Shown here: piece by piece, positions 6,523 to 17,435 of the stretch
How positions within the stretch are numbered: position 1 is the first letter of the stretch
Layout of the letters: each line of letters begins with the position of its first letter
Source: Methylacidiphilum caldifontis
Lineage (GTDB): Bacteria; Verrucomicrobiota; Verrucomicrobiia; Methylacidiphilales; CAMAQI01
Assembly: GCA_945877805.1 (NCBI GenBank)
Contig: CAMCSM010000014.1
Coordinates: 1 to 42,072, forward strand
Direction: 5' to 3'
DNA length: 42,072 bases
Position numbers and translations under genes: made by a program
Notes under the pieces: generated by a model
The model's input: only the letters and a program-made list of their open reading frames with translations
Database searches by the model: none
Told to the model about the DNA's origin: nothing

Positions 6523-6671
6523 AACCCATTTCTTGCATTAGAACTGGAGGGGCAGTGGCCCACTGCCTTCCCCGTCCGATGAGGCACAGAGCCTGTGCCC
6601 CTCCATTTTTTATCACCATTTTGGTGATATCGTTTGCGAGGTATATCCATTCCCAATGCAAGAAATGGGTT
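6523..6671. repeat. 149-bp MITE-like element with terminal inverted repeats and three stems
   Basis: The ends are perfect 17-bp inverted repeats: AACCCATTTCTTGCATT (6523-6539) and AATGCAAGAAATGGGTT (6655-6671). Inside are three stems: GGCAGTG-GCC-CACTGCC (6551-6567), GGCACAG-AGC-CTGTGCC (6583-6599) and TATCACCA-TTT-TGGTGATA (6611-6629). About 100 bp of it (6571-6671) recurs inverted at 16179-16279, where it forms the end of the PRC-barrel gene. No coding capacity is seen. The layout resembles a miniature transposable element, but no flanking target duplication is obvious. Confidence 0.9.
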
Positions 6672-8763: not shown

Positions 8764-9444
8764 TTAAGGTGTAGCTGTTCCAGAACGCTTCATCGTGTCA
8801 GTGATTCGAAGAATTCGTTCGCGGTCATCCGGATGTTTTGAAGCCCACGTTTCAAGAAGTTTGGCCTGTCGTTTTACCTTCGTTAATCCCATCAGCTTTG
8901 CCACTTGATCATCGGGGGTTCCTCGAAGGAGTTCGACATTTTCATCGATTTTCATCAAAGAGTAGAGATCGGCCATTTTTTGAAGATTGCCATCCTCCCC
9001 TTTATTAATCGTGAGGACACGACTTTCGATCTCTTTTTTATGCTTTTGGAGTTGTTCGTCGATTCGTGTTTGAAGTTCGAGCACGCGATCTCTTTCCACA
9101 TTGATCGCTGCTCTTTCGTTTTTGAGGAGCTCCTCTCGATCGATAAGATCACGGTCTCTGGCAAGTTGTTCCTCTTCCCGTTTCTTCAGATCTTTCGACC
9201 ATAGTTCCATTTCCTCGGCCGTTTTCGCAAGGGAATCGGTTGTTTGTACCTTGAGGATAGGAGGTCCGGCATTTTCCATTCCAGGGACAGGAAGTTGTGC
9301 GGCGACGGGGGTCTGTACGACCGGTTTCTGCATCTCCTGAATCTTCGGAAGGAGATAGGTCATCATGACCGCACCGACCCCGCCAAAGATCGCAAGAAGA
9401 AGGATCACGCAGGTAATGAGAACGGTTTTAACGGTTATTTTCAT
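8764..9444 (-). CDS. MotE-like flagellar protein (MgtE-N-like C-terminal domain)
   Basis: A 226-residue protein: one N-terminal membrane helix (residues ~7-30, TVLITCVILLLAIFGGVGAV), a long charged coiled coil (~75-145) and a C-terminal helical domain (DLYSLMKIDENVELLRGTPD, then QVAKLMGLTKVKRQAKLLE) like the MgtE N-terminal domain of MotE proteins. In other bacteria MotE links stator or MotC to the MS ring. Here it is the last gene of the fli run, overlapping fliJ by ATGA. I infer a stator-anchoring or chaperone role. No motA or motB is present in this window. Confidence 0.65.
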   Translation of the reverse strand: MKITVKTVLITCVILLLAIFGGVGAVMMTYLLPKIQEMQKPVVQTPVAAQLPVPGMENAGPPILKVQTTDSLAKTAEEMELWSKDLKKREEEQLARDRDLIDREELLKNERAAINVERDRVLELQTRIDEQLQKHKKEIESRVLTINKGEDGNLQKMADLYSLMKIDENVELLRGTPDDQVAKLMGLTKVKRQAKLLETWASKHPDDRERILRITDTMKRSGTATP

Positions 9445-9866
9445 GAGGCAATCCTCATAGCATAGCGCGTTTGGGTGATGTCATCGAGAAATTTCCGATC
9501 TCGTTGATCCTCTTCTTCCAATGCGAGTTCTTGGCGGTGTTCGATCACTCGTTCGATCATGTCGTGTCGCTGCTTGCTTAAAAGTGTTTTTTCAATTTGC
9601 TGGTCTCTTTGCTCGATCGATTTTTGATGTTCGTTCGTTCTTGTCAAAATCGCTTGCTCTGACTCGACAAAATGGGTGTCAAAATGGCGAAGGAGTGAGG
9701 AGCCTTGAAAGGCCTCTTTCGCAAAAAGATCGGATTGAAGTTTTTGTTGTGAAGTTTGCAGCTCATGAAGTCGTGTGTAGACCTCTCGATGTTGAAGCAT
9801 CAGTTGATGCTCCTCTTTTTCGAGTTCATATTTCCGAATTTTTTTAAGAATTTCCAGGGCGTTCAT
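9441..9866 (-). CDS. fliJ: flagellar export chaperone FliJ
   Basis: 141 residues, almost entirely charged heptad-rich coiled coil (LEILKKIRKYELEKEEHQLM through the C-terminal RKFLDDITQTRYAMR), as expected for FliJ. Sequence conservation in this family is low, so the call rests on size, coiled-coil character and position: it overlaps the end of fliI by 4 bp and the start of the motE-like gene by 4 bp. FliJ inserts into the FliI hexamer and connects it with FlhA during export of rod, hook and filament subunits. Confidence 0.8.
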   Translation of the reverse strand: MNALEILKKIRKYELEKEEHQLMLQHREVYTRLHELQTSQQKLQSDLFAKEAFQGSSLLRHFDTHFVESEQAILTRTNEHQKSIEQRDQQIEKTLLSKQRHDMIERVIEHRQELALEEEDQRDRKFLDDITQTRYAMRIAS

Positions 9867-11182
9867 TTCAGCCCTCCGAGAATCGACTCAAGGGTTTTAA
9901 GAGTCTCTTCAAACTCGACTTTAATAGAAATTTTTTGGCGTAAAAATTCGATTAGTTGAGGGTAGATATGAAGGGCTTGATCGAGTTGTGTATTATTTCC
10001 AGGGGTGTAGGCGCCGATCTCGATCAGCTCTCGATATTGACGTTGAATCGCCAAAACATGCCTTGCTTTCCCTGCGAGATTTTGATGCGCCTCCGTAACG
10101 AGATCCGGCTGTAGACGACTCAAGCTCTCGAGGATATCGATCGCAGGATAATGATTTTCTGCTGCGAGTCGACGGGTGAGGAGAAGATGGCCATCGAGAA
10201 TTGATCGGGCGCAATCGCTGACCGGATCATTCCAATCATCCCCTTCGGTGAGTACGGTATAAAAAGCGGTGATTGCGCCTTGATCGTAACAGCCGGCTTG
10301 CTCCAAAATAACAGGGAAAAGCCCGAAAACAGAGGGAGGATAGCCACGAGTGGCCGGAGGCTCGCCGATCGCAAGGCCGACTTCGCGTTGTGCCATCGCC
10401 AGTCGTGTCAGGGAATCCATCATCAGCAGGACATGTTTTCCTTGGGCACGAAAATGCGCTGCAATCGTATTTGCGGTATGGGCTGCTTTAATACGAACGA
10501 GAGCCGGCTGATCGGAAGTGGCGATAATTAAAACTGTTTTTTTGAGAGCTTCAGGGCCTAAATCTTTTTCAACAAATTCGAGGACCTCACGACCGCGCTC
10601 CCCAATTAATGCGATGACATTAATGTCCGATTCCGCATAGCGAGCAATCATTCCCAGAAGACTGCTTTTACCGACGCCGCTTCCGGCAAAAAGACCGAGA
10701 CGTTGGCCGACGCCACAAGTGGCAAAGGCATCAATCGCCCGGATTCCTGTTTTAAAAGTTTTTTGAATCCGCGGTCTTTTCGTGGGAGAGGGGACCTTTT
10801 GAATCATCGGAGATCGCAGCGTCTCTTGAGGAAGCGCCCCGAGATCATCGATCGGACGTCCAAGAGGATCGAGCATCCTTCCGAGCACATGATCGCCGAC
10901 GGGGATTTGCGGGGGAGTTCCTAACGATTGAACCGCATCCCCAGGGGCAATTCCTTTAAGATCCTCCCAAGGCATCAGAAGTAATTTATTATCTCTAAAT
11001 CCGACGACTTCCGAAAGGATTCGATGACCTTGATGGGTTTGAATCCAACAAGCCGTTCCCAGAGATGCGGGGGGGCCTTGCGATTCGACAGTAAGTCCGA
11101 CGACCTTCGAGACTCGACCGGAAATGGCGTAGGAATCCATTTCTTGAATCGATCGTTGAAGGGGCTTCAGGAGCTCATTCAT
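9863..11182 (-). CDS. fliI: flagellum-specific export ATPase FliI
   Basis: A 439-residue F1-beta-like ATPase that powers the flagellar type III export gate. The Walker A loop is AGSGVGKSS (residues 166-174). Walker B lies around residue 255 (HVLLMMDSLTRLA), and other family motifs are GERGREV, PATRGYPPSVF and ILDGHLLLTRRLA. The N-terminal part holds the beta-barrel (ISGRVSKVVGLTVESQGPP). Start and stop each overlap a neighbour by 4 bp (fliH upstream, fliJ downstream), so the three are coupled. Confidence 0.97.
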   Translation of the reverse strand: MNELLKPLQRSIQEMDSYAISGRVSKVVGLTVESQGPPASLGTACWIQTHQGHRILSEVVGFRDNKLLLMPWEDLKGIAPGDAVQSLGTPPQIPVGDHVLGRMLDPLGRPIDDLGALPQETLRSPMIQKVPSPTKRPRIQKTFKTGIRAIDAFATCGVGQRLGLFAGSGVGKSSLLGMIARYAESDINVIALIGERGREVLEFVEKDLGPEALKKTVLIIATSDQPALVRIKAAHTANTIAAHFRAQGKHVLLMMDSLTRLAMAQREVGLAIGEPPATRGYPPSVFGLFPVILEQAGCYDQGAITAFYTVLTEGDDWNDPVSDCARSILDGHLLLTRRLAAENHYPAIDILESLSRLQPDLVTEAHQNLAGKARHVLAIQRQYRELIEIGAYTPGNNTQLDQALHIYPQLIEFLRQKISIKVEFEETLKTLESILGGLK

Positions 11183-11742
11183 GATTGATCCAAGGCAAGT
11201 TTAAGTTTTGCCAATTTCAGTTGAAGACGTCCATCAATGGACCCGAGATCGCTATGAATTCGATACTCTCCCGCAGTGAGATCGTGATTGGATTTCCACA
11301 GAATCGTTCCCTGACCAAGGATCATCCCCGTTTTTTCGCAAATATTTTGAATGCTTTCGAGATCCAAAGGGGAGCACTCGATACGAATCGATTGAGCCTC
11401 GCTGAGATCTCGAAGTAACGATTGGATCTCCTCGGCAATTTGCTGGTGCGTGAACGGATTTTTCTTGAGAAGTTTATCCGTGATCAATTGGATGAGTTGA
11501 GGAAAATCAGAAGCGATCAAGGTTCTCGACTCTTGATGAAGGGAGGTCAGTGCTTGGAGCGATTTTTTCCACTCCTCTTTCTGCGTATCGACCCATTTTT
11601 TCTGTTCCAAGGCAGCCTGCCATTTTCCTGCTTGATAACCGGCGTGAAACCCCTCATCAAATTGTTTGGTATCGAGAGCGGGCTTGCCCTCGATGCGCTC
11701 GATTTTGTTAATTTTTGAAGGAATGGCAAATTTGATTTGCAT
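11179..11742 (-). CDS. fliH: flagellar assembly protein FliH
   Basis: A 187-residue FliH-type negative regulator and stator-like stalk of the FliI ATPase. It has the typical N-terminal FDEGFHAGYQAGK motif followed by an alpha-helical stretch, and a V-ATPase subunit E-like C-terminal domain ending in GEYRIHSDLGSIDGRL. It overlaps fliI by 4 bp and starts 12 bp after the fliG stop. It binds FliI and the C-ring protein FliN, bringing the ATPase to the base of the export gate. Confidence 0.88.
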   Translation of the reverse strand: MQIKFAIPSKINKIERIEGKPALDTKQFDEGFHAGYQAGKWQAALEQKKWVDTQKEEWKKSLQALTSLHQESRTLIASDFPQLIQLITDKLLKKNPFTHQQIAEEIQSLLRDLSEAQSIRIECSPLDLESIQNICEKTGMILGQGTILWKSNHDLTAGEYRIHSDLGSIDGRLQLKLAKLKLALDQS

Positions 11743-11754
11743 GGGCGGTTCTCT

Positions 11755-12843
11755 TTAGACGATGGAGTCAGAACCACCACCACCCTTACGAATGATCGTA
11801 ATTTCACCGGAGGATTCAAGTCGTCGAACGGCATCGACGATTTTGTCTTGAGCCTCTTCGACATCGCGTAAGCGAACAGGAGGCATAAACTTGAGTTCCT
11901 CTTGGAGAGACTCCACCGCCCGTTTGGAGAGGGCTCCAAAAATAAGGGATTTGAGTTTCTCGCTCGCTGTTTTGAGGGACTTGGCAAGGATCTGGAAGTC
12001 GACTTCGCGAAGAACACGTTGCATTTGAGCTTTGTCGAGATCGTTGAGATCTTCGAAAGTGAAAAGAAGCTTTTTGATCGCTCGGGAGACATCCGGATTT
12101 TTTTCTTCCAGACTGTTGAGAATTTGATTCGAGGTCGCCTCATCGAGAACGTTGAGAACTTCCGCGAGATTTTTAGTTCCTCCGGTCGTCGAGAAATCGA
12201 CCTGATTTCGGAGTTGAAGTCGGTTTTTGATCAAGGTCATGACTTGGGAGACCACCTCAGAGGAGACGGCATCCATCATCGCAAGACGTTCGACGATCTC
12301 CGTTCGCTGATCGGGAGCGATAAGCGTTAAAACCTCGGCGCAACGGGTCGGTTCGAGATAGGAGAGAATCAAGGCCCACGTTTGGGTCTGTTCTTTGCGC
12401 AATAAACCCATCAGTTGGCGCGGTTGAACTTCACGAAGAACCCCTGCTTCTAAGGAACGAAACTTTGAAGGGGAGACTCGGGTGAGAATCTCATTCGCTT
12501 TAAGACTTCCCAGCGATTTTTCTAAAACAGCTCGGGCATAGCTCGGGCCGCCAGCGGTCGAGGTGACGGCGTGAACGGTAATGTTACTAAATTCTTTGAC
12601 GATCGCTTGTTGGACCGGAATCGAAATGAAATCCAGTTTCGCCATCTCCTTCATGATCTCTTCGACTTCTCGTTCATCGAATTGATTGAGAATTGTCGAG
12701 GCGATATCCGACCCTAAGACAACCAAAAGTCCTGCAAGCTTCTGGTTTTTATTCCATCCTTCTAAATGATTAATATTATCAGACCCGTTTTGCGCAGGTT
12801 GATCGAGGTTGTTTTCGAGGAGGATGTCTTGAGTTGCACTCAT
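11755..12843 (-). CDS. fliG: flagellar motor switch protein FliG
   Basis: 362 residues with the three-part FliG layout: N-terminal FliF-binding domain (QKLAGLLVVLGSDIASTIL), middle ARM domain with the EHPQ-like region (LRKEQTQTWALILSYLEP), and a C-terminal torque domain that contains DIQ/charged helices (FTFEDLNDLDKAQMQRVLR). FliG forms the top of the C ring and contacts the stator. It is slightly longer than average because of a Gln/Asn-rich N-terminal extension of ~30 residues and a Gly/Ser-rich tail. It lies between fliF (46-bp gap) and fliH. Confidence 0.95.
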   Translation of the reverse strand: MSATQDILLENNLDQPAQNGSDNINHLEGWNKNQKLAGLLVVLGSDIASTILNQFDEREVEEIMKEMAKLDFISIPVQQAIVKEFSNITVHAVTSTAGGPSYARAVLEKSLGSLKANEILTRVSPSKFRSLEAGVLREVQPRQLMGLLRKEQTQTWALILSYLEPTRCAEVLTLIAPDQRTEIVERLAMMDAVSSEVVSQVMTLIKNRLQLRNQVDFSTTGGTKNLAEVLNVLDEATSNQILNSLEEKNPDVSRAIKKLLFTFEDLNDLDKAQMQRVLREVDFQILAKSLKTASEKLKSLIFGALSKRAVESLQEELKFMPPVRLRDVEEAQDKIVDAVRRLESSGEITIIRKGGGGSDSIV

Positions 12844-12889: not shown

Positions 12890-14557
12890 TTATACTTCAT
12901 CTCCCTCTTCTTTGATCAGCCATTGCCGAATCGCAAGGGAGGTATTGGAAGGATTGTCTTGAATGAGCTTCGAGATTTCATCGGCAGTCAATTGACCGGG
13001 AGCGCCTCCTCGGCGCTTTGACTTTCTGTTTTTCTCGGCCTCTTCCTCTTCCTCTTCACCGGAGAGTTGTCGTCGGCGAATTTTAATCTCCTCTTCCGAA
13101 GGGGGCTCAAATTGCGAGAGCAAGTCTTCGAATTCGCTTCGAGCCTCTTCGTCGCTTTGGGTCGTCGATTTGACGGTCTTCCAAAGGTAGAACAGGAGGC
13201 CAACCGCGATCAAGAGAAGGAACCCTTGAGAGGCCCAAGGGAGCCATTTTTTGAACTGTTCAATGTCGGTCTTACCAACAGGAGCGGTATTCGCAAAGAG
13301 GTCGTTAAATTCCGTTTCAACGAGTTGGAAGGAATCTTTTCGAGTCTCGTTTTGAGTGAATCCAATCGCCGCTTTGACGATCTCTTCGAGTGATTTCTTT
13401 TCTGCGTCGTTACGGGGAGTAGCGGTAGGAGCTGCTCCTCCTCCTTTGCGGGTGTTTAAGAAAACAGCGATGCCGATTTTTTTGATCTGTCCGACCGCAT
13501 ATTGTCGGTTTTCAACGACCCGACCGATTTCATATTGATTGGTCGTATTCTCACGAGTGATGTTCGATTTCGTAACAGGAGAGCCATTCGAGGCACTCGA
13601 GGCCTCGATATTACTTGGACTTCCTGCCGCTCCGCCCGCACTTTGAGTGGAGCTATCGCTGACTTCATTATTAACGACCTCACTTCGAGGAACTTGGTTT
13701 TTAGGATCAAACCGTTCCGAGGTCTCTTGGACGGTATCAAAATTTAACTCTGCGGAAATGCGAACGACGGAATTTCCTGGCCCGAGAACCTGATCGAGCA
13801 TCGATTGAGCTTTCTCGCGAAGATGTTCTTCAGCCTCTTTAACGGCTGATTGTTGACGATTGGTGAGTGAGGCGGTGCTGGAGATATTTTCATCTTCAGC
13901 AAGAGCTTTTCCTGTGTTATCGACGACAGTGACCCGATTCGGTTGAAGTCCTTCGACTCCATTTGCCACTAAAAAACGAACCGCTTGCACTTGACCGGGG
14001 GCAAGAACGCGACCCGGTTTGAGTTGAACGAAGACCGAGGCTTTCGATTCCCGTCGTTCGCGAACGAAGAGTCTTTCTTCAGGGACAACGATCATCACGC
14101 GCGCCTCTTGAATTTCATCAAATTGTTTGATCGTTCTCGCAAGCTCTCCTTGGAGCGCGCGGTAGTAATTGGCGCGTTGCATGAAGTCAGAGACTCCAAA
14201 GGTCGGCTTATCAAAAAGTTCAAATCCAACGCCACCGGCTGAATCGGAGGTGCGTGGAATTCCTTGCGCCGCTAAAGAGAGGCGGGTTTCATAAACAGCA
14301 GTGGCAGGAATAAGAACAGCGGTTCCTCCATCGGAGAGTTGATATTGAATTTTTTTACTCTGGAGAAAATCGACGATTTTCGAGGCCTCCGTCGGAGCGA
14401 GTCCTGCGTAGAGGAGACTAAATTTCGGCTGACTCGCAAAATAGGTAATTCCGATCAGGACGGCAAAGACCAGCGCAAAGCTGCCGATCAATGATAGCTT
14501 TCTTGACCCCGATAACCCTTGCCATAGTTGATTCAATGATCTTTTTATCTCGTCCAT
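12890..14557 (-). CDS. fliF: flagellar MS-ring protein FliF
   Basis: 555 residues with both expected membrane helices: ~21-41 (LSLIGSFALVFAVLIGITYF) and ~443-464 (FLLLIAVGLLFYLWKTV). Between them lie the periplasmic ring-building motifs (LYAGLAPTEASKIVDFL, RVMIVVPEERLF, SVFVQLKPG, RFLVANGVEGL). The cytoplasmic tail has an acidic and Lys/Arg-rich stretch and ends in QWLIKEEGDEV, the FliG-binding segment. A GGAGG sequence seven bases upstream of the ATG is one of the best ribosome binding sites in the window. The MS ring is the platform on which rod, C ring and export gate assemble. Confidence 0.97.
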   Translation of the reverse strand: MDEIKRSLNQLWQGLSGSRKLSLIGSFALVFAVLIGITYFASQPKFSLLYAGLAPTEASKIVDFLQSKKIQYQLSDGGTAVLIPATAVYETRLSLAAQGIPRTSDSAGGVGFELFDKPTFGVSDFMQRANYYRALQGELARTIKQFDEIQEARVMIVVPEERLFVRERRESKASVFVQLKPGRVLAPGQVQAVRFLVANGVEGLQPNRVTVVDNTGKALAEDENISSTASLTNRQQSAVKEAEEHLREKAQSMLDQVLGPGNSVVRISAELNFDTVQETSERFDPKNQVPRSEVVNNEVSDSSTQSAGGAAGSPSNIEASSASNGSPVTKSNITRENTTNQYEIGRVVENRQYAVGQIKKIGIAVFLNTRKGGGAAPTATPRNDAEKKSLEEIVKAAIGFTQNETRKDSFQLVETEFNDLFANTAPVGKTDIEQFKKWLPWASQGFLLLIAVGLLFYLWKTVKSTTQSDEEARSEFEDLLSQFEPPSEEEIKIRRRQLSGEEEEEEAEKNRKSKRRGGAPGQLTADEISKLIQDNPSNTSLAIRQWLIKEEGDEV

Positions 14558-14712: not shown

Positions 14713-15114
14713 TTATACCGGAATTCGCATGACCTCCTGATAGGAATCAAGAAGTTTATTACGCATCTCGGTTAACATCGTGAAAGCAACACTGGACTCT
14801 TCCACTGCGATCATCGCTTCGTGGACCGGAGTCGCTCCTCCTTGGAGGACATCTCGAACTTTTTCTCCCGCGACTTTCTGGACTTGGTTCACATCACGAA
14901 CGGTTTGTTGCATGAGATGTCCAAATGTCGTCGGTTCATGGAGACCTAAAGAGCTCAGAGGCTGAGGAGCCTTTGTGGAGGGTTGAAACTCAATCGACTT
15001 AGGAATTTGAAAGTTAAATTGCCCCGAAGGAGTTGCTGTCGCAGGACTCCCCTGAGTCGTCGGAAGGGGAAGAGTTGCGGCGCTGGAGAGTGCTTGAAGA
15101 GAGGGAATTGTCAT
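14713..15114 (-). CDS. fliE: flagellar hook-basal body protein FliE
   Basis: 133 residues. The C-terminal two thirds match FliE: TFGHLMQQTVRDVNQVQKV, then VHEAMIAVEESSVAFTMLTE and RNKLLDSYQEVMRIPV, the conserved terminal motif. FliE joins the MS ring to the proximal rod and is an early export substrate. The N-terminal 50 residues are Pro/Thr/Ser-rich and variable, as usual. It starts 12 bp after the flgC stop, with a weak GAGATAAACG upstream. Confidence 0.93.
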   Translation of the reverse strand: MTIPSLQALSSAATLPLPTTQGSPATATPSGQFNFQIPKSIEFQPSTKAPQPLSSLGLHEPTTFGHLMQQTVRDVNQVQKVAGEKVRDVLQGGATPVHEAMIAVEESSVAFTMLTEMRNKLLDSYQEVMRIPV

Positions 15115-15126
15115 CGTTTATCTCGG

Positions 15127-15558
15127 TTATTGAGCGATCCTCATCGATTGAGAAAACATTTGCCGTGCCGTGCTAATCACTTGAAGATTTGCCTCGAAGG
15201 AGCGACTCGCCGTGATCATGTCGACCATTTCGCTCATGACTTCGACATTCGGCATGGTCACCATCCCCTCTTTGTCTGCATGAGGGTGATTCGGGAGATG
15301 AACTTTTTGAAATGGTCTCGGGTCATCGACCACTTTCGTGACTTTTACTTGAGGGCTGGAAAGAGTATCGCTCTTCCCTGTCATCTCGGGAGGAAGATAC
15401 GATTCAAAGATCACTTGTTTACGACGATAGGGATTGCCGTTCGCATCTTTCGTTGTATTGCTTTGAGCGATGTTGGTGGCGATGACGTCCAAACGGGTAC
15501 GTTCCGCTTGAAGAGCGCTTCCGCTAATCGCAATGCCAGGAATCAGATTACTCGTCAT
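15127..15558 (-). CDS. flgC: flagellar basal-body rod protein FlgC
   Basis: 143 residues, full family length. The N-terminal rod motif reads GIAISGSALQAERTRLDVIA, followed by TNIAQSNTT. Mid-protein it has YRRKQVIFE, and the C-terminus has VMSEMVDMITASRSFEANL. FlgC is a proximal-rod subunit exported by the flagellar type III system. The ATG overlaps the flgB stop (ATGA), indicating coupled translation. Confidence 0.96.
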   Translation of the reverse strand: MTSNLIPGIAISGSALQAERTRLDVIATNIAQSNTTKDANGNPYRRKQVIFESYLPPEMTGKSDTLSSPQVKVTKVVDDPRPFQKVHLPNHPHADKEGMVTMPNVEVMSEMVDMITASRSFEANLQVISTARQMFSQSMRIAQ

Positions 15559-15953
15559 GAGGTTCTCCCTGTGATCGCGGCTTTGAGGCCATTATATCTT
15601 TTGGCTGCAAGATGACTCGAAAACTCGAAAAGAGTTTGATTTTTAGTCATTTCTAAAAGTTCAGAGTCGAGATTGACATTATTACCATCTGATTTCTCCC
15701 CTAAAGCGTTGAGATCCTTTTGAATAATATCATGGGGAAAGAGAGGTCGAGCCTCTTCACCATGGTCGAGCCTCTTTAACGACTCCTGAAGCGAGGATTG
15801 AAATTGGGCGGAAATATCGAGTCTTTTATAGCCTGGAGTATTGACGTTGGCGATATTGCTCGCAATTGCCTGCTGCCGGAACGAGGAGGCATTCAAGCTC
15901 ATCTTGAGGCTTTGAAGCGTTGAGTCGTTGAAAAGCGGGGCAATGGTATTCAT
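15555..15953 (-). CDS. flgB: flagellar basal-body rod protein FlgB
   Basis: 132 residues. The family signature is at residues ~28-47: QQAIASNIANVNTPGYKRLD. The C-terminus (EMTKNQTLFEFSSHLAAKRY) is also typical. FlgB is the rod subunit next to FliE. It is the first gene of the run flgB-flgC-fliE-fliF-fliG-fliH-fliI-fliJ. A sigma-54-like -24/-12 site ends 15 bp upstream of the ATG, which would give a leader of only about 4 nt. Otherwise only CTTGAG precedes the start. Confidence 0.95.
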   Translation of the reverse strand: MNTIAPLFNDSTLQSLKMSLNASSFRQQAIASNIANVNTPGYKRLDISAQFQSSLQESLKRLDHGEEARPLFPHDIIQKDLNALGEKSDGNNVNLDSELLEMTKNQTLFEFSSHLAAKRYNGLKAAITGRTS

Positions 15954-15967
15954 CTCAAGTCGATATC

Positions 15968-15983
15968 TGCAAAGCCTGTGCCA
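15968..15983 (-). promoter_or_regulatory. sigma-54 (-24/-12) promoter-like site upstream of flgB
   Basis: The minus strand reads TGGCACAGGCTTTGCA, with GG and GC elements exactly 10 nt apart. This matches the RpoN consensus TGGCAC-N5-TTGCA. Flagellar rod and hook operons are RpoN-controlled in many bacteria. The predicted start lies at about 15957, only 4 nt before the flgB ATG. Caution: the first ten bases (GGCACAGGCT) also occur in the hairpin of the dispersed repeat 270-290 bp away (16252-16268), so the match may derive from a repeat. Confidence 0.5.
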
Positions 15984-16162
15984 GTTTTATTTAAAAAAGT
16001 TATAAATAGCTAAAATACAATAGTTTAAGTATTAATTTACTTTTTTTTCATGATTTAATTAAGAAAAAAACTCCTCAAATAATTCAATAACAATCAAAAA
16101 ACAGGGAAATAAAGAAAAAAATTCTTAATAGCGGTAATATTTTCCCTACTGGTCTATTTTTC

Positions 16163-16951
16163 TCAAGGGATTCGGATAAACCCATTTCTTGCATTGGGAA
16201 TGGATATACCTCGTAAACGATATCCCAAAATGGTGATAAAAAATGGAGGGGCACAGGCTCTGTGCCTCATCGGACGGGGAAAAGGCTCGTAAAACGAGAA
16301 GATCTCTCCGCTGGAAGCGGAAATAATTTTGGTACGGAGGGAGGAGGGGGTACAACTGCAGCCCCGACCTGTCGGGGCTGTAAAGACCTTTTTTCCTGGC
16401 AACCAATTATGAGTACTGATCACAAGATAGCGAATCGCCCAAGAGTCGTCGTCGATGATGAAGTCTTCGACATGTCCGATCTCGCCATCGGATGCTTGAA
16501 TGTGATAGCCGTTCACCTCATGAGTACTGCGCAAATGGGGATCCCAGGCCTTTTCTGTTGAAGTGGGCTTATCCCATTCATTTCGATTGCGTGAAAGGCG
16601 CGGAAGATAACCCCATTGATTGGGGCCACTCCAGTAGACGGGCCACTCGTAGTAGCCAAAGAAATCTTCTTCAAACTGACGTGAAACCGGTTTATCCGTA
16701 TTGAGAGAGGGACTTTTTTCAATCTGTTTTTTTGTCAGACTGATTTCGATATTTTCCTCTGCTTCGTTTACAGCGACAAGTGCATAGGGCGAGATCAACA
16801 CTTGGCGACCTGTGAGCCAGTTGCCGGTATTGGCGACCAAATAACGGATTGTCCAATGCTTATCATCAAAATAAAATTCTTGAGCTTTACCGATTACGCC
16901 GTCACGGCAATCGAGTTTATATCCTTGGATGGTCTTGGCGCTGCAGAGCAT
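16163..16951 (-). CDS. two-PRC-barrel protein with repeat-derived C-terminus
   Basis: The protein has two PRC-barrel domains. The first (residues 1-60) runs from TIQGYKLDCRDGVIGKAQEF to TGNWLTGRQVLISP. The second (~143-192) runs from EVNGYHIQASDGEIGHVEDF to STHNWLPGKKVF. A FGYYEWPVYWSGPNQWGY linker lies between them. The second domain stops at the point where the first continues as VLISPYAL. After about position 16395 the frame runs through hairpin DNA and then a dispersed repeat, giving a foreign tail (RHRACAPPFFITILGYRLRG). So the gene is 3'-truncated and may be a pseudogene. AAGGAAAC lies upstream of the ATG. PRC-barrels bind RNA or membrane partners, but the function here is unknown. Confidence 0.7.
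   Translation of the reverse strand: MLCSAKTIQGYKLDCRDGVIGKAQEFYFDDKHWTIRYLVANTGNWLTGRQVLISPYALVAVNEAEENIEISLTKKQIEKSPSLNTDKPVSRQFEEDFFGYYEWPVYWSGPNQWGYLPRLSRNRNEWDKPTSTEKAWDPHLRSTHEVNGYHIQASDGEIGHVEDFIIDDDSWAIRYLVISTHNWLPGKKVFTAPTGRGCSCTPSSLRTKIISASSGEIFSFYEPFPRPMRHRACAPPFFITILGYRLRGISIPNARNGFIRIP
16179..16382. repeat. hairpin cluster incl. inverted half-copy of the 6523-6671 element
   Basis: Positions 16179-16279 are the reverse complement of 6571-6671, with a 2-bp deletion in one stem. Then come three more stems: CTCGT-AAA-ACGAG (16286-16298), TCCGCT-GGA-AGCGGA (16307-16321) and CAGCCCCGA-CCTG-TCGGGGCTG (16359-16380). All lie inside the open frame of the PRC-barrel gene. The last stem is followed at a short distance by a T-run on the plus strand, but no plus-strand gene ends there. 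Confidence 0.85.
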
Positions 16952-17041
16952 AATCGTAGTTTCCTTTTGGTGGTTTGTTTCGAATAGTACTTTGAAAATA
17001 AAATTCTAGAAAAAGAGTACTACAAAAGTTCTCTGTAATCT

Positions 17042-17075
17042 ATGGGGTGTTACCCGACTATTTAAAATGATTAAA
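17042..17075. repeat. GGGTGTTACCC repeat, copy 1
   Basis: ATGGGGTGTTACCCGACTAT, followed by TTAAAATGATT, recurs at 17568-17600 with three changes and, inverted and degenerate, at 17669-17691. Each copy contains the small stem GGGT-GTT-ACCC. Copies 1 and 2 flank the small membrane-protein gene at 17106-17435. Confidence 0.8.
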
Positions 17076-17105
17076 GATGCTGCATCCTCTTGAGATGGTT
17101 CACTA

Positions 17106-17435
17106 TCAATCGTTGATTCGCACTAGGGCCTTGGCTCCTGCGCCTAATGCCTCTGCGATCTGTTGATTGGCGCTCGCTCGATCCATCGTTGCTGTGGCGG
17201 TAATGATCAGTTGAATCTCGTCCCACTGAAGGCTCTCCGTTGCGTAGGGGGGGAGTTGATTTTTGATCATTTCGAGATGCTTCCCCCAGGACCAGGCACC
17301 GACTCCCAAAGCGAAGAGGATGGGGAGGCGGATCAGTCCCCATTTCAAGGACTTCGATTTTTTGTGGGCTCGAACCTTTTTGGTGAGATTTTCAGCATGG
17401 CGTTTCAGGGGGAGATGCATAAGAGTGGTGCGCAT
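17106..17435 (-). CDS. small hypothetical membrane protein
   Basis: 109 residues with a basic N-terminus (KRHAENLTKKVRAHKKSKSL), one hydrophobic helix (~51-70, WGLIRLPILFALGVGAWSW) and a C-terminal domain of ~40 residues ending GAGAKALVRIND. I do not recognise the family. The start could also be the Met at residue 6; both ATGs follow CACTCTT and lack a Shine-Dalgarno sequence. It is bracketed by direct GGGTGTTACCC repeats about 520 bp apart. Coding status is likely but not secure. Confidence 0.45.
   Translation of the reverse strand: MRTTLMHLPLKRHAENLTKKVRAHKKSKSLKWGLIRLPILFALGVGAWSWGKHLEMIKNQLPPYATESLQWDEIQLIITATATMDRASANQQIAEALGAGAKALVRIND

Follow-up and report, generated by a model that had tools for sequence, protein, structure and literature searches.

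A sigma-54-type element close to the flgB start codon in Methylacidiphilum caldifontis and other Verrucomicrobiota

The element and the flagellar genes behind it

The window, which is the whole 42,072-nucleotide stretch of Methylacidiphilum caldifontis DNA analysed here, carries a series of minus-strand flagellar genes that opens with flgB and continues with genes for rod, FliE, FliF, FliG, FliH, and FliI-type proteins identified with Pfam (Table 1). FlgB scores 76.5 bits against the NCBIfam FlgB model (cut-off 59.05), and a preliminary description was right that the element considered here heads a flagellar run. The element, TGGCACAGGCTTTGCA (minus strand, 15983..15968), matches the sigma-54 consensus without a mismatch (TGGCAC-N5-TTGCA against TGGCAY-N5-TTGCW) and has the GG and GC doublets at the fixed spacing by which -24/-12 promoters are recognized.

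The end of the -12 element is separated from the flgB ATG by 14 nt. By convention the sigma-54 +1 is counted 12 nt behind the C of the -12 GC, and because sigma-54 start sites usually sit at a set distance behind the element, the +1 is predicted near 15957, which would give flgB a leader of 3-4 nt. The figure of 4 nt that had been given for the distance of the promoter from the start codon holds for this predicted leader but not for the element, which is 14 nt away. The distance used agrees with Campylobacter jejuni, in which 18 sigma-54 start sites fall 8-13 nt behind the motif in a published start-site map (PMC3847290).

Table 1. Positions of the promoter element, candidate enhancer, and flagellar genes in the window.
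Feature	Positions	Strand	Basis or remark
Candidate enhancer (activator site) GGAAAATATTACC	16133..16145	-	180-192 bp upstream of flgB start codon
-24 element TGGCAC	15978..15983	-	Sequence; AAAACTGGCAC invariant in three same-genus genomes
-12 element TTGCA	15968..15972	-	Sequence; TGCAGATAT invariant in three same-genus genomes
14-nt stretch, -12 element to start codon	15954..15967	-	11/14 positions invariant in the genus
flgB start codon ATG	15951..15953	-	Sole ATG/GTG/TTG in frame upstream of conserved motif
flgB	15555..15953	-	NCBIfam TIGR01396 over cut-off; Pfam Flg_bb_rod
Rod gene, flgC position	15127..15558	-	Pfam Flg_bbr_C and Flg_bb_rod; name FlgC by position
fliE	14713..15114	-	Pfam FliE
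fliF	12890..14557	-	Pfam YscJ_FliF, YscJ_FliF_C
fliG	11755..12843	-	Pfam FliG_N/M/C
fliH	11179..11742	-	Pfam FliH
fliI-type ATPase	9863..11182	-	Pfam ATP-synt_ab, T3SS_ATPase_C
Gene at fliJ position	9441..9866	-	Position only; 0 Pfam families

From the upstream stop codon to a point some 16 codons ahead of the conserved SNIAN motif, the flgB frame contains a single ATG, GTG, or TTG, at 15953..15951. A misplaced flgB start codon in the window was considered and rejected because this ATG alone is usable ahead of the motif. None of the tetramers GGAG, GAGG, AGGA, and AAGG occurs 4-10 nt upstream of flgB, as expected of a leaderless mRNA without a Shine-Dalgarno (SD) sequence. This observation carries little weight, because SD-like tetramers are also missing over the same interval before fliE, fliG, fliH, and fliI; they are present before the gene after flgB, fliF, the gene at the fliJ position, and the gene after that, and at the rod gene in the flgC position the tetramer is a GGAG 6 nt before the ATG. 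An Rfam scan at gathering scores found no known RNA family in 15500-17200.

Conservation and inheritance of the spacing

Counts within the window have no significance (8 motif matches at up to two mismatches, with 6.8 in shuffled sequence), while the strict pattern TGGCAYN5TTGCW has seven matches in the whole genome and its reversed form has one. Comparison with relatives is more informative. The order set comprised 60 genomes, including that of the window, and 11 of these had a flgB match, giving 12 loci. The element lies 10-15 nt before the start codon in all 12, which speaks against a chance match and supports the near-leaderless placement predicted in the preliminary description. Among three genomes of the same genus, the two boxes and 11 of the 14 nt leading to the ATG are invariant, and the spacer is invariant in one of its five bases; one of these genomes has GCCCT where the window has AGGCT, with TGGCAC and TGCA identical.

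For the wider survey, 134 flgB loci were pooled: the 12 from the order, 42 from a draw of 387 genomes of the phylum, and the best 80 of 344 confirmed loci in a named collection. The draw gave 48 genomes with a hit, of which 44 were read (two of these, G000 and G008, by way of the order set); the four unread genomes, G183, G345, G393, and G396, had scores below the family cut-off. Removal of ten duplicates, identical over 300 bases, and of L228, which has no start codon, left 101 loci from Verrucomicrobiota and 22 others. Phylum membership was taken from the record title or kinship label; by that rule L206 is one of the 22 others, although the FlgB tree places it within Verrucomicrobiota.

The element lies 10-16 nt before the start codon (hereafter near) in 69 of the 101 Verrucomicrobiota loci, most often at 11 nt (32 loci); Markov-shuffled upstream regions gave a mean of 0.04 loci in this range and a maximum of 1 in 200 runs. 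In the cultured flagellated relative Pelagicoccus mobilis, the element has one mismatch and stands 11 nt ahead of the flgB ATG. Among the loci outside the near range the gap is 5 nt in one (11 nt from another ATG), 21-32 nt in 17, and 52-86 nt in three, and 11 loci have no element at up to one mismatch, so not every locus depends on tight spacing. Inspected by eye, four of these 11 (G382, G326, G222, and G234) have a TGGCAY box in the equivalent position with GT replacing GC. If the start codon nearest in the alignment is used instead, then the near count drops to 61 of 101, with the loss of eight Spartobacteria-type loci that have ATGs at 12 and 18 nt and of one locus that moves to 20 nt. The absence of gaps of 17-20 nt hinges on the start-codon rule, since under the alternative rule these eight loci shift to 18 nt and the one to 20, and it is set aside as evidence. 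The 22 other loci, a small set chosen by likeness to the query, include none that is near under the rule used (L213 becomes near, at 16 nt, if a GTG is taken as the start), with the element at 22-46 nt in eight and absent in 14. The placement had been called unusual, and this is correct in comparison with the sigma-54 promoters described in the literature consulted, but within the phylum it is common.

On the FlgB tree, which is built from a short protein, has many weak forks, and excludes two rows of less than 100 aa, the near label takes 9 changes, compared with 39.6 when labels are shuffled. Of the 12 order rows, 11 group together in a supported clade, and the twelfth, a second copy in G039, is found elsewhere. 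In the Limisphaera/Pedosphaera-type group, a near group of eight is nested among 13 rows with gaps of 21-32 nt, which suggests that tight spacing was regained there. The second G039 copy (L013, G039:C348) is itself near-leaderless in layout and stands beside Chthoniobacterales-type rows; it may be of foreign origin or a binning error.

Start codons at the 69 near loci are ATG in 66 and GTG in three, in keeping with the preference of leaderless translation for a 5'-terminal AUG, and an SD-like tetramer is found in 10 of the 69, compared with 7 of 20 loci whose gaps are at least 20 nt. Nucleotides 9-11 behind the -12 element show a bias in these 69 loci: G is overrepresented at the two positions preceding the nominal +1 (39 and 44 loci), and C or T occupies the nominal +1 itself in 55. 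Because excess G precedes the nominal +1 and a pyrimidine occupies it, initiation at the A of the ATG itself is plausible for the common 11-nt gap. The G-rich bases before the ATG in many near loci, together with the SD-like tetramer in 10 of the 69, would also fit a longer transcript.

Sigma-54 regulators, candidate enhancer, and other sites

The preliminary description suggested a search for rpoN, for an NtrC-type flagellar activator, and for further copies of the site before flagellar genes, and the genome has rpoN, an NtrC-type activator that tracks flgB, and a further copy before flgF. The rpoN gene is on contig C29 of the window genome (414 bits against a cut-off of 277). A sigma-54-like site with one mismatch (L083:7437-7452, plus strand) lies 36 nt before this gene, and self-control of rpoN is possible. 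The genome has four response-regulator/AAA+ activators, one of which, an NtrC-type protein on contig C6 (G000:C6), has an ortholog scoring 567 bits or more in 11 of 11 flgB-bearing genomes of the order. Among the other 49 order genomes, G024 holds a comparable activator (548 bits) and the next best scores 450 bits. The G024 gene (C39:29542-30894) is a close ortholog, and rod proteins were undetected in that genome. In G010 and G020 the 3' end of the activator gene is about 0.4 kb from flgB, upstream and in the same orientation, with short frames possible between. Hits of the C6 activator to models of FlbD (Caulobacter) and FlgR (Campylobacter) were below cut-off.

The candidate enhancer upstream of flgB, of which GAAAATATTnCC is invariant in the genus, belongs to a palindromic pattern defined as a 13-mer GG-N9-CC with at least seven A/T among the nine. 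The pattern was derived from the 12 order loci and is accordingly upstream of all 12; in held-out loci it was found at 29 of 57 near flgB loci, with 3.6 expected by chance (maximum 9) and four for a CC-N9-GG control. When 13- or 14-mers are allowed, palindromes occur at 18 of 30 flgF loci (chance 3.7) and 4 of 29 flgG loci (chance 1.7). Most lie about 90-170 bp before the start codon. The strict palindrome is absent upstream of 12 of the 30 flgF loci, that of the window genome included.

The FlgF query had matches in 33 of the 33 flgB-bearing genomes chosen for this search, and 30 loci were read. With up to one mismatch, the element lies 11-17 nt before the flgF start in 25 of the 30, and all 30 have it at up to two mismatches; at flgG, the next gene, it is found in 1 of 29. 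The flgF gene of the window genome directly precedes flgG and has a GTG start codon 11 nt from the element; its protein has the NCBIfam flgF model as its best match, at a score under the cut-off of that model. At a putative flhB, assigned by eye, the element lies 18 nt before the start in two genomes, G102 and G145, and 20 nt before it in G142.

Other strict matches in the window genome include three with a readable gene, at 57 nt before a glutamine amidotransferase class II gene (Pfam), at 34 nt before a small gene with GGGAGG, and at 21 or 33 nt before a third gene, and three without a convincing gene. When the pattern is relaxed (NTGCW, 9-16 nt to RTG), four genomic sites match and the control yields none; the four precede flgB, flgF, a conserved gene whose function is unknown, and a 21-codon frame. 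Given the gaps of 21-57 nt at the other strict matches and the non-flagellar looser sites, tight spacing is neither general nor with certainty limited to flagella. Near-leaderless sigma-54 genes as a general rule of the phylum were also considered: across eight genomes, 19 of 51 downstream ATGs had gaps of 10-16 nt (11.5 expected), and after removal of the three known flgB/flgF rows, 16 of 48 did (P 0.058), which falls short of showing such a rule. A gene for a conserved protein stands behind a near-leaderless sigma-54-like element at L088:1529-2236 (plus strand) and L092:784-1506 (minus strand), and also at G000:C109:2994-3024. The protein has no Pfam match, and its two families share 34% identity.

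Proposed mechanism and alternatives

The preliminary description proposed an RpoN-type promoter at 15968-15983, and its conservation, the rpoN gene, and an NtrC-type activator that tracks flgB all support this. The preferred reading, with a probability of roughly 0.8, is that 15983-15968 is an enhancer-dependent sigma-54 promoter that holds the transcription start to within a few bases of the flgB start codon, giving a near-leaderless message. Building on the observed element, spacing, conservation, rpoN gene, flgB-tracking activator, and palindrome enrichment, the minus-strand element would be a working promoter for the flgB-fliI run, which would be transcribed as an operon. The NtrC-type regulator G000:C6 may bind the upstream AT-rich GG-N9-CC palindromes and would then contact sigma-54 RNA polymerase at -24/-12, upon which the promoter would open. 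Because sigma-54 start sites sit a fixed short distance behind the -12 GC, RNA would begin 0-6 nt before the start codon (3-4 nt in the window), and flgB would therefore be translated leaderless or near-leaderless. An equivalent layout heads flgF genes and appears to be widely inherited in Verrucomicrobiota. The tight arrangement is shared by many relatives, which suggests that their ribosomes start such messages without the usual leader. Methylacidiphilae and Spartobacteria are listed among classes with a CCUCC-type anti-SD in a published survey (PMC10783764), which would make leaderless starts exceptional in these groups.

If the sigma-54 promoter is real, then the main flgB message could still come from a second upstream promoter with a normal leader, with sigma-54 adding only a short form. 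The AT-rich upstream region could hold a sigma-70 promoter, and many relatives have G-rich bases before the ATG; however, the scan found one weak minus-strand sigma-70 match, which does not exceed the shuffle mean of 1.5, and the tight spacing, for which a spare promoter would have no use, is seen again at flgF and elsewhere in the phylum. This alternative is considered unlikely. Less likely by a clear step is translation from a codon further inside flgB, which would restore an ordinary leader: eight Spartobacteria-type loci do have a second in-frame ATG 6 nt on, but in the window no other usable start was found ahead of the conserved motif, and FlgB starts at similar alignment positions across relatives.

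That the element is a chance match or a by-product of a nearby dispersed repeat, both of which the preliminary description had allowed for, is the least credible of these explanations. The likeness that prompted the idea was correctly noted, as ten bases of the element, GGCACAGGCT, recur in a hairpin at 16250-16259, and the window has no excess of matches at two mismatches. Retention of the element in 12 of 12 order flgB loci nevertheless disposes of coincidence as its source. A repeat-derived promoter fails because five of the ten shared bases sit in the unconserved spacer, which varies in the genus (GCCCT for AGGCT) while the boxes are kept; moreover, the 2.94-Mb genome contains 40 dispersed copies of this repeat when up to two mismatches are allowed. 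We take the likeness itself to be coincidental.

Sigma-54 flagellar promoters with an NtrC-type activator are known, as in the FlrC and FleQ systems. The present case resembles them in the -24/-12 element, the response-regulator AAA+ activator with a Fis-type helix, and the position before rod genes, but differs in that the start codon is a few bases from the predicted start site in most of the phylum loci sampled. The nearest parallel found in the literature comes from Deinococcus-Thermus, in which a -10 box adjoins reading frames (PMC12340547): there too the promoter is set so that RNA starts at the start codon with no ribosome-binding site, although the box is of the sigma-70 type, while here an enhancer-dependent sigma-54 element is found on flagellar genes. 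In Campylobacter jejuni and Helicobacter pylori, leaderless genes exist beside a sigma-54 flagellar regulon, but these leaderless genes follow sigma-70 boxes and are themselves poorly conserved between species (PMC3847290). A start-site paper on Bradyrhizobium states that specific promoters have not been described for leaderless genes (PMC4842269). A search of titles and abstracts returned no report of near-leaderless sigma-54 flagellar promoters and no paper on flagellar control in Verrucomicrobiota; the parts are known, while their combination was not found in the literature searched.

Leaderless messages have mostly been described behind sigma-70 boxes, whereas here an activator-controlled class of promoter appears to keep a fixed distance to the start codon in a large part of a phylum. 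If true, nature would offer here a group of leaderless genes that can be switched on and off, with which the choice of such messages by ribosomes could be tested, and flagellar control in the phylum would gain a promoter, an activator, and a candidate enhancer. A broader proposal, for which the odds seem about even, is that Verrucomicrobiota have an ancestral flagellar regulon in which the start codon is locked to the sigma-54 promoter at operon heads (flgB, flgF, and perhaps flhB and the conserved gene without known function), yielding activator-gated leaderless messages that bypass SD selection and leader-based control, with the lock regained inside a lineage that had lost it.

The dispersed repeat near flgB, GGCACAGGCTCTGTGCCTCATCGG, is palindromic and is found in the window at 16250-16273 (plus strand) and 6576-6599 (minus strand). 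Read on the minus strand at 16266-16250, it is terminator-like, and several copies in the genome lie within about 200 bases of the first base of a contig.
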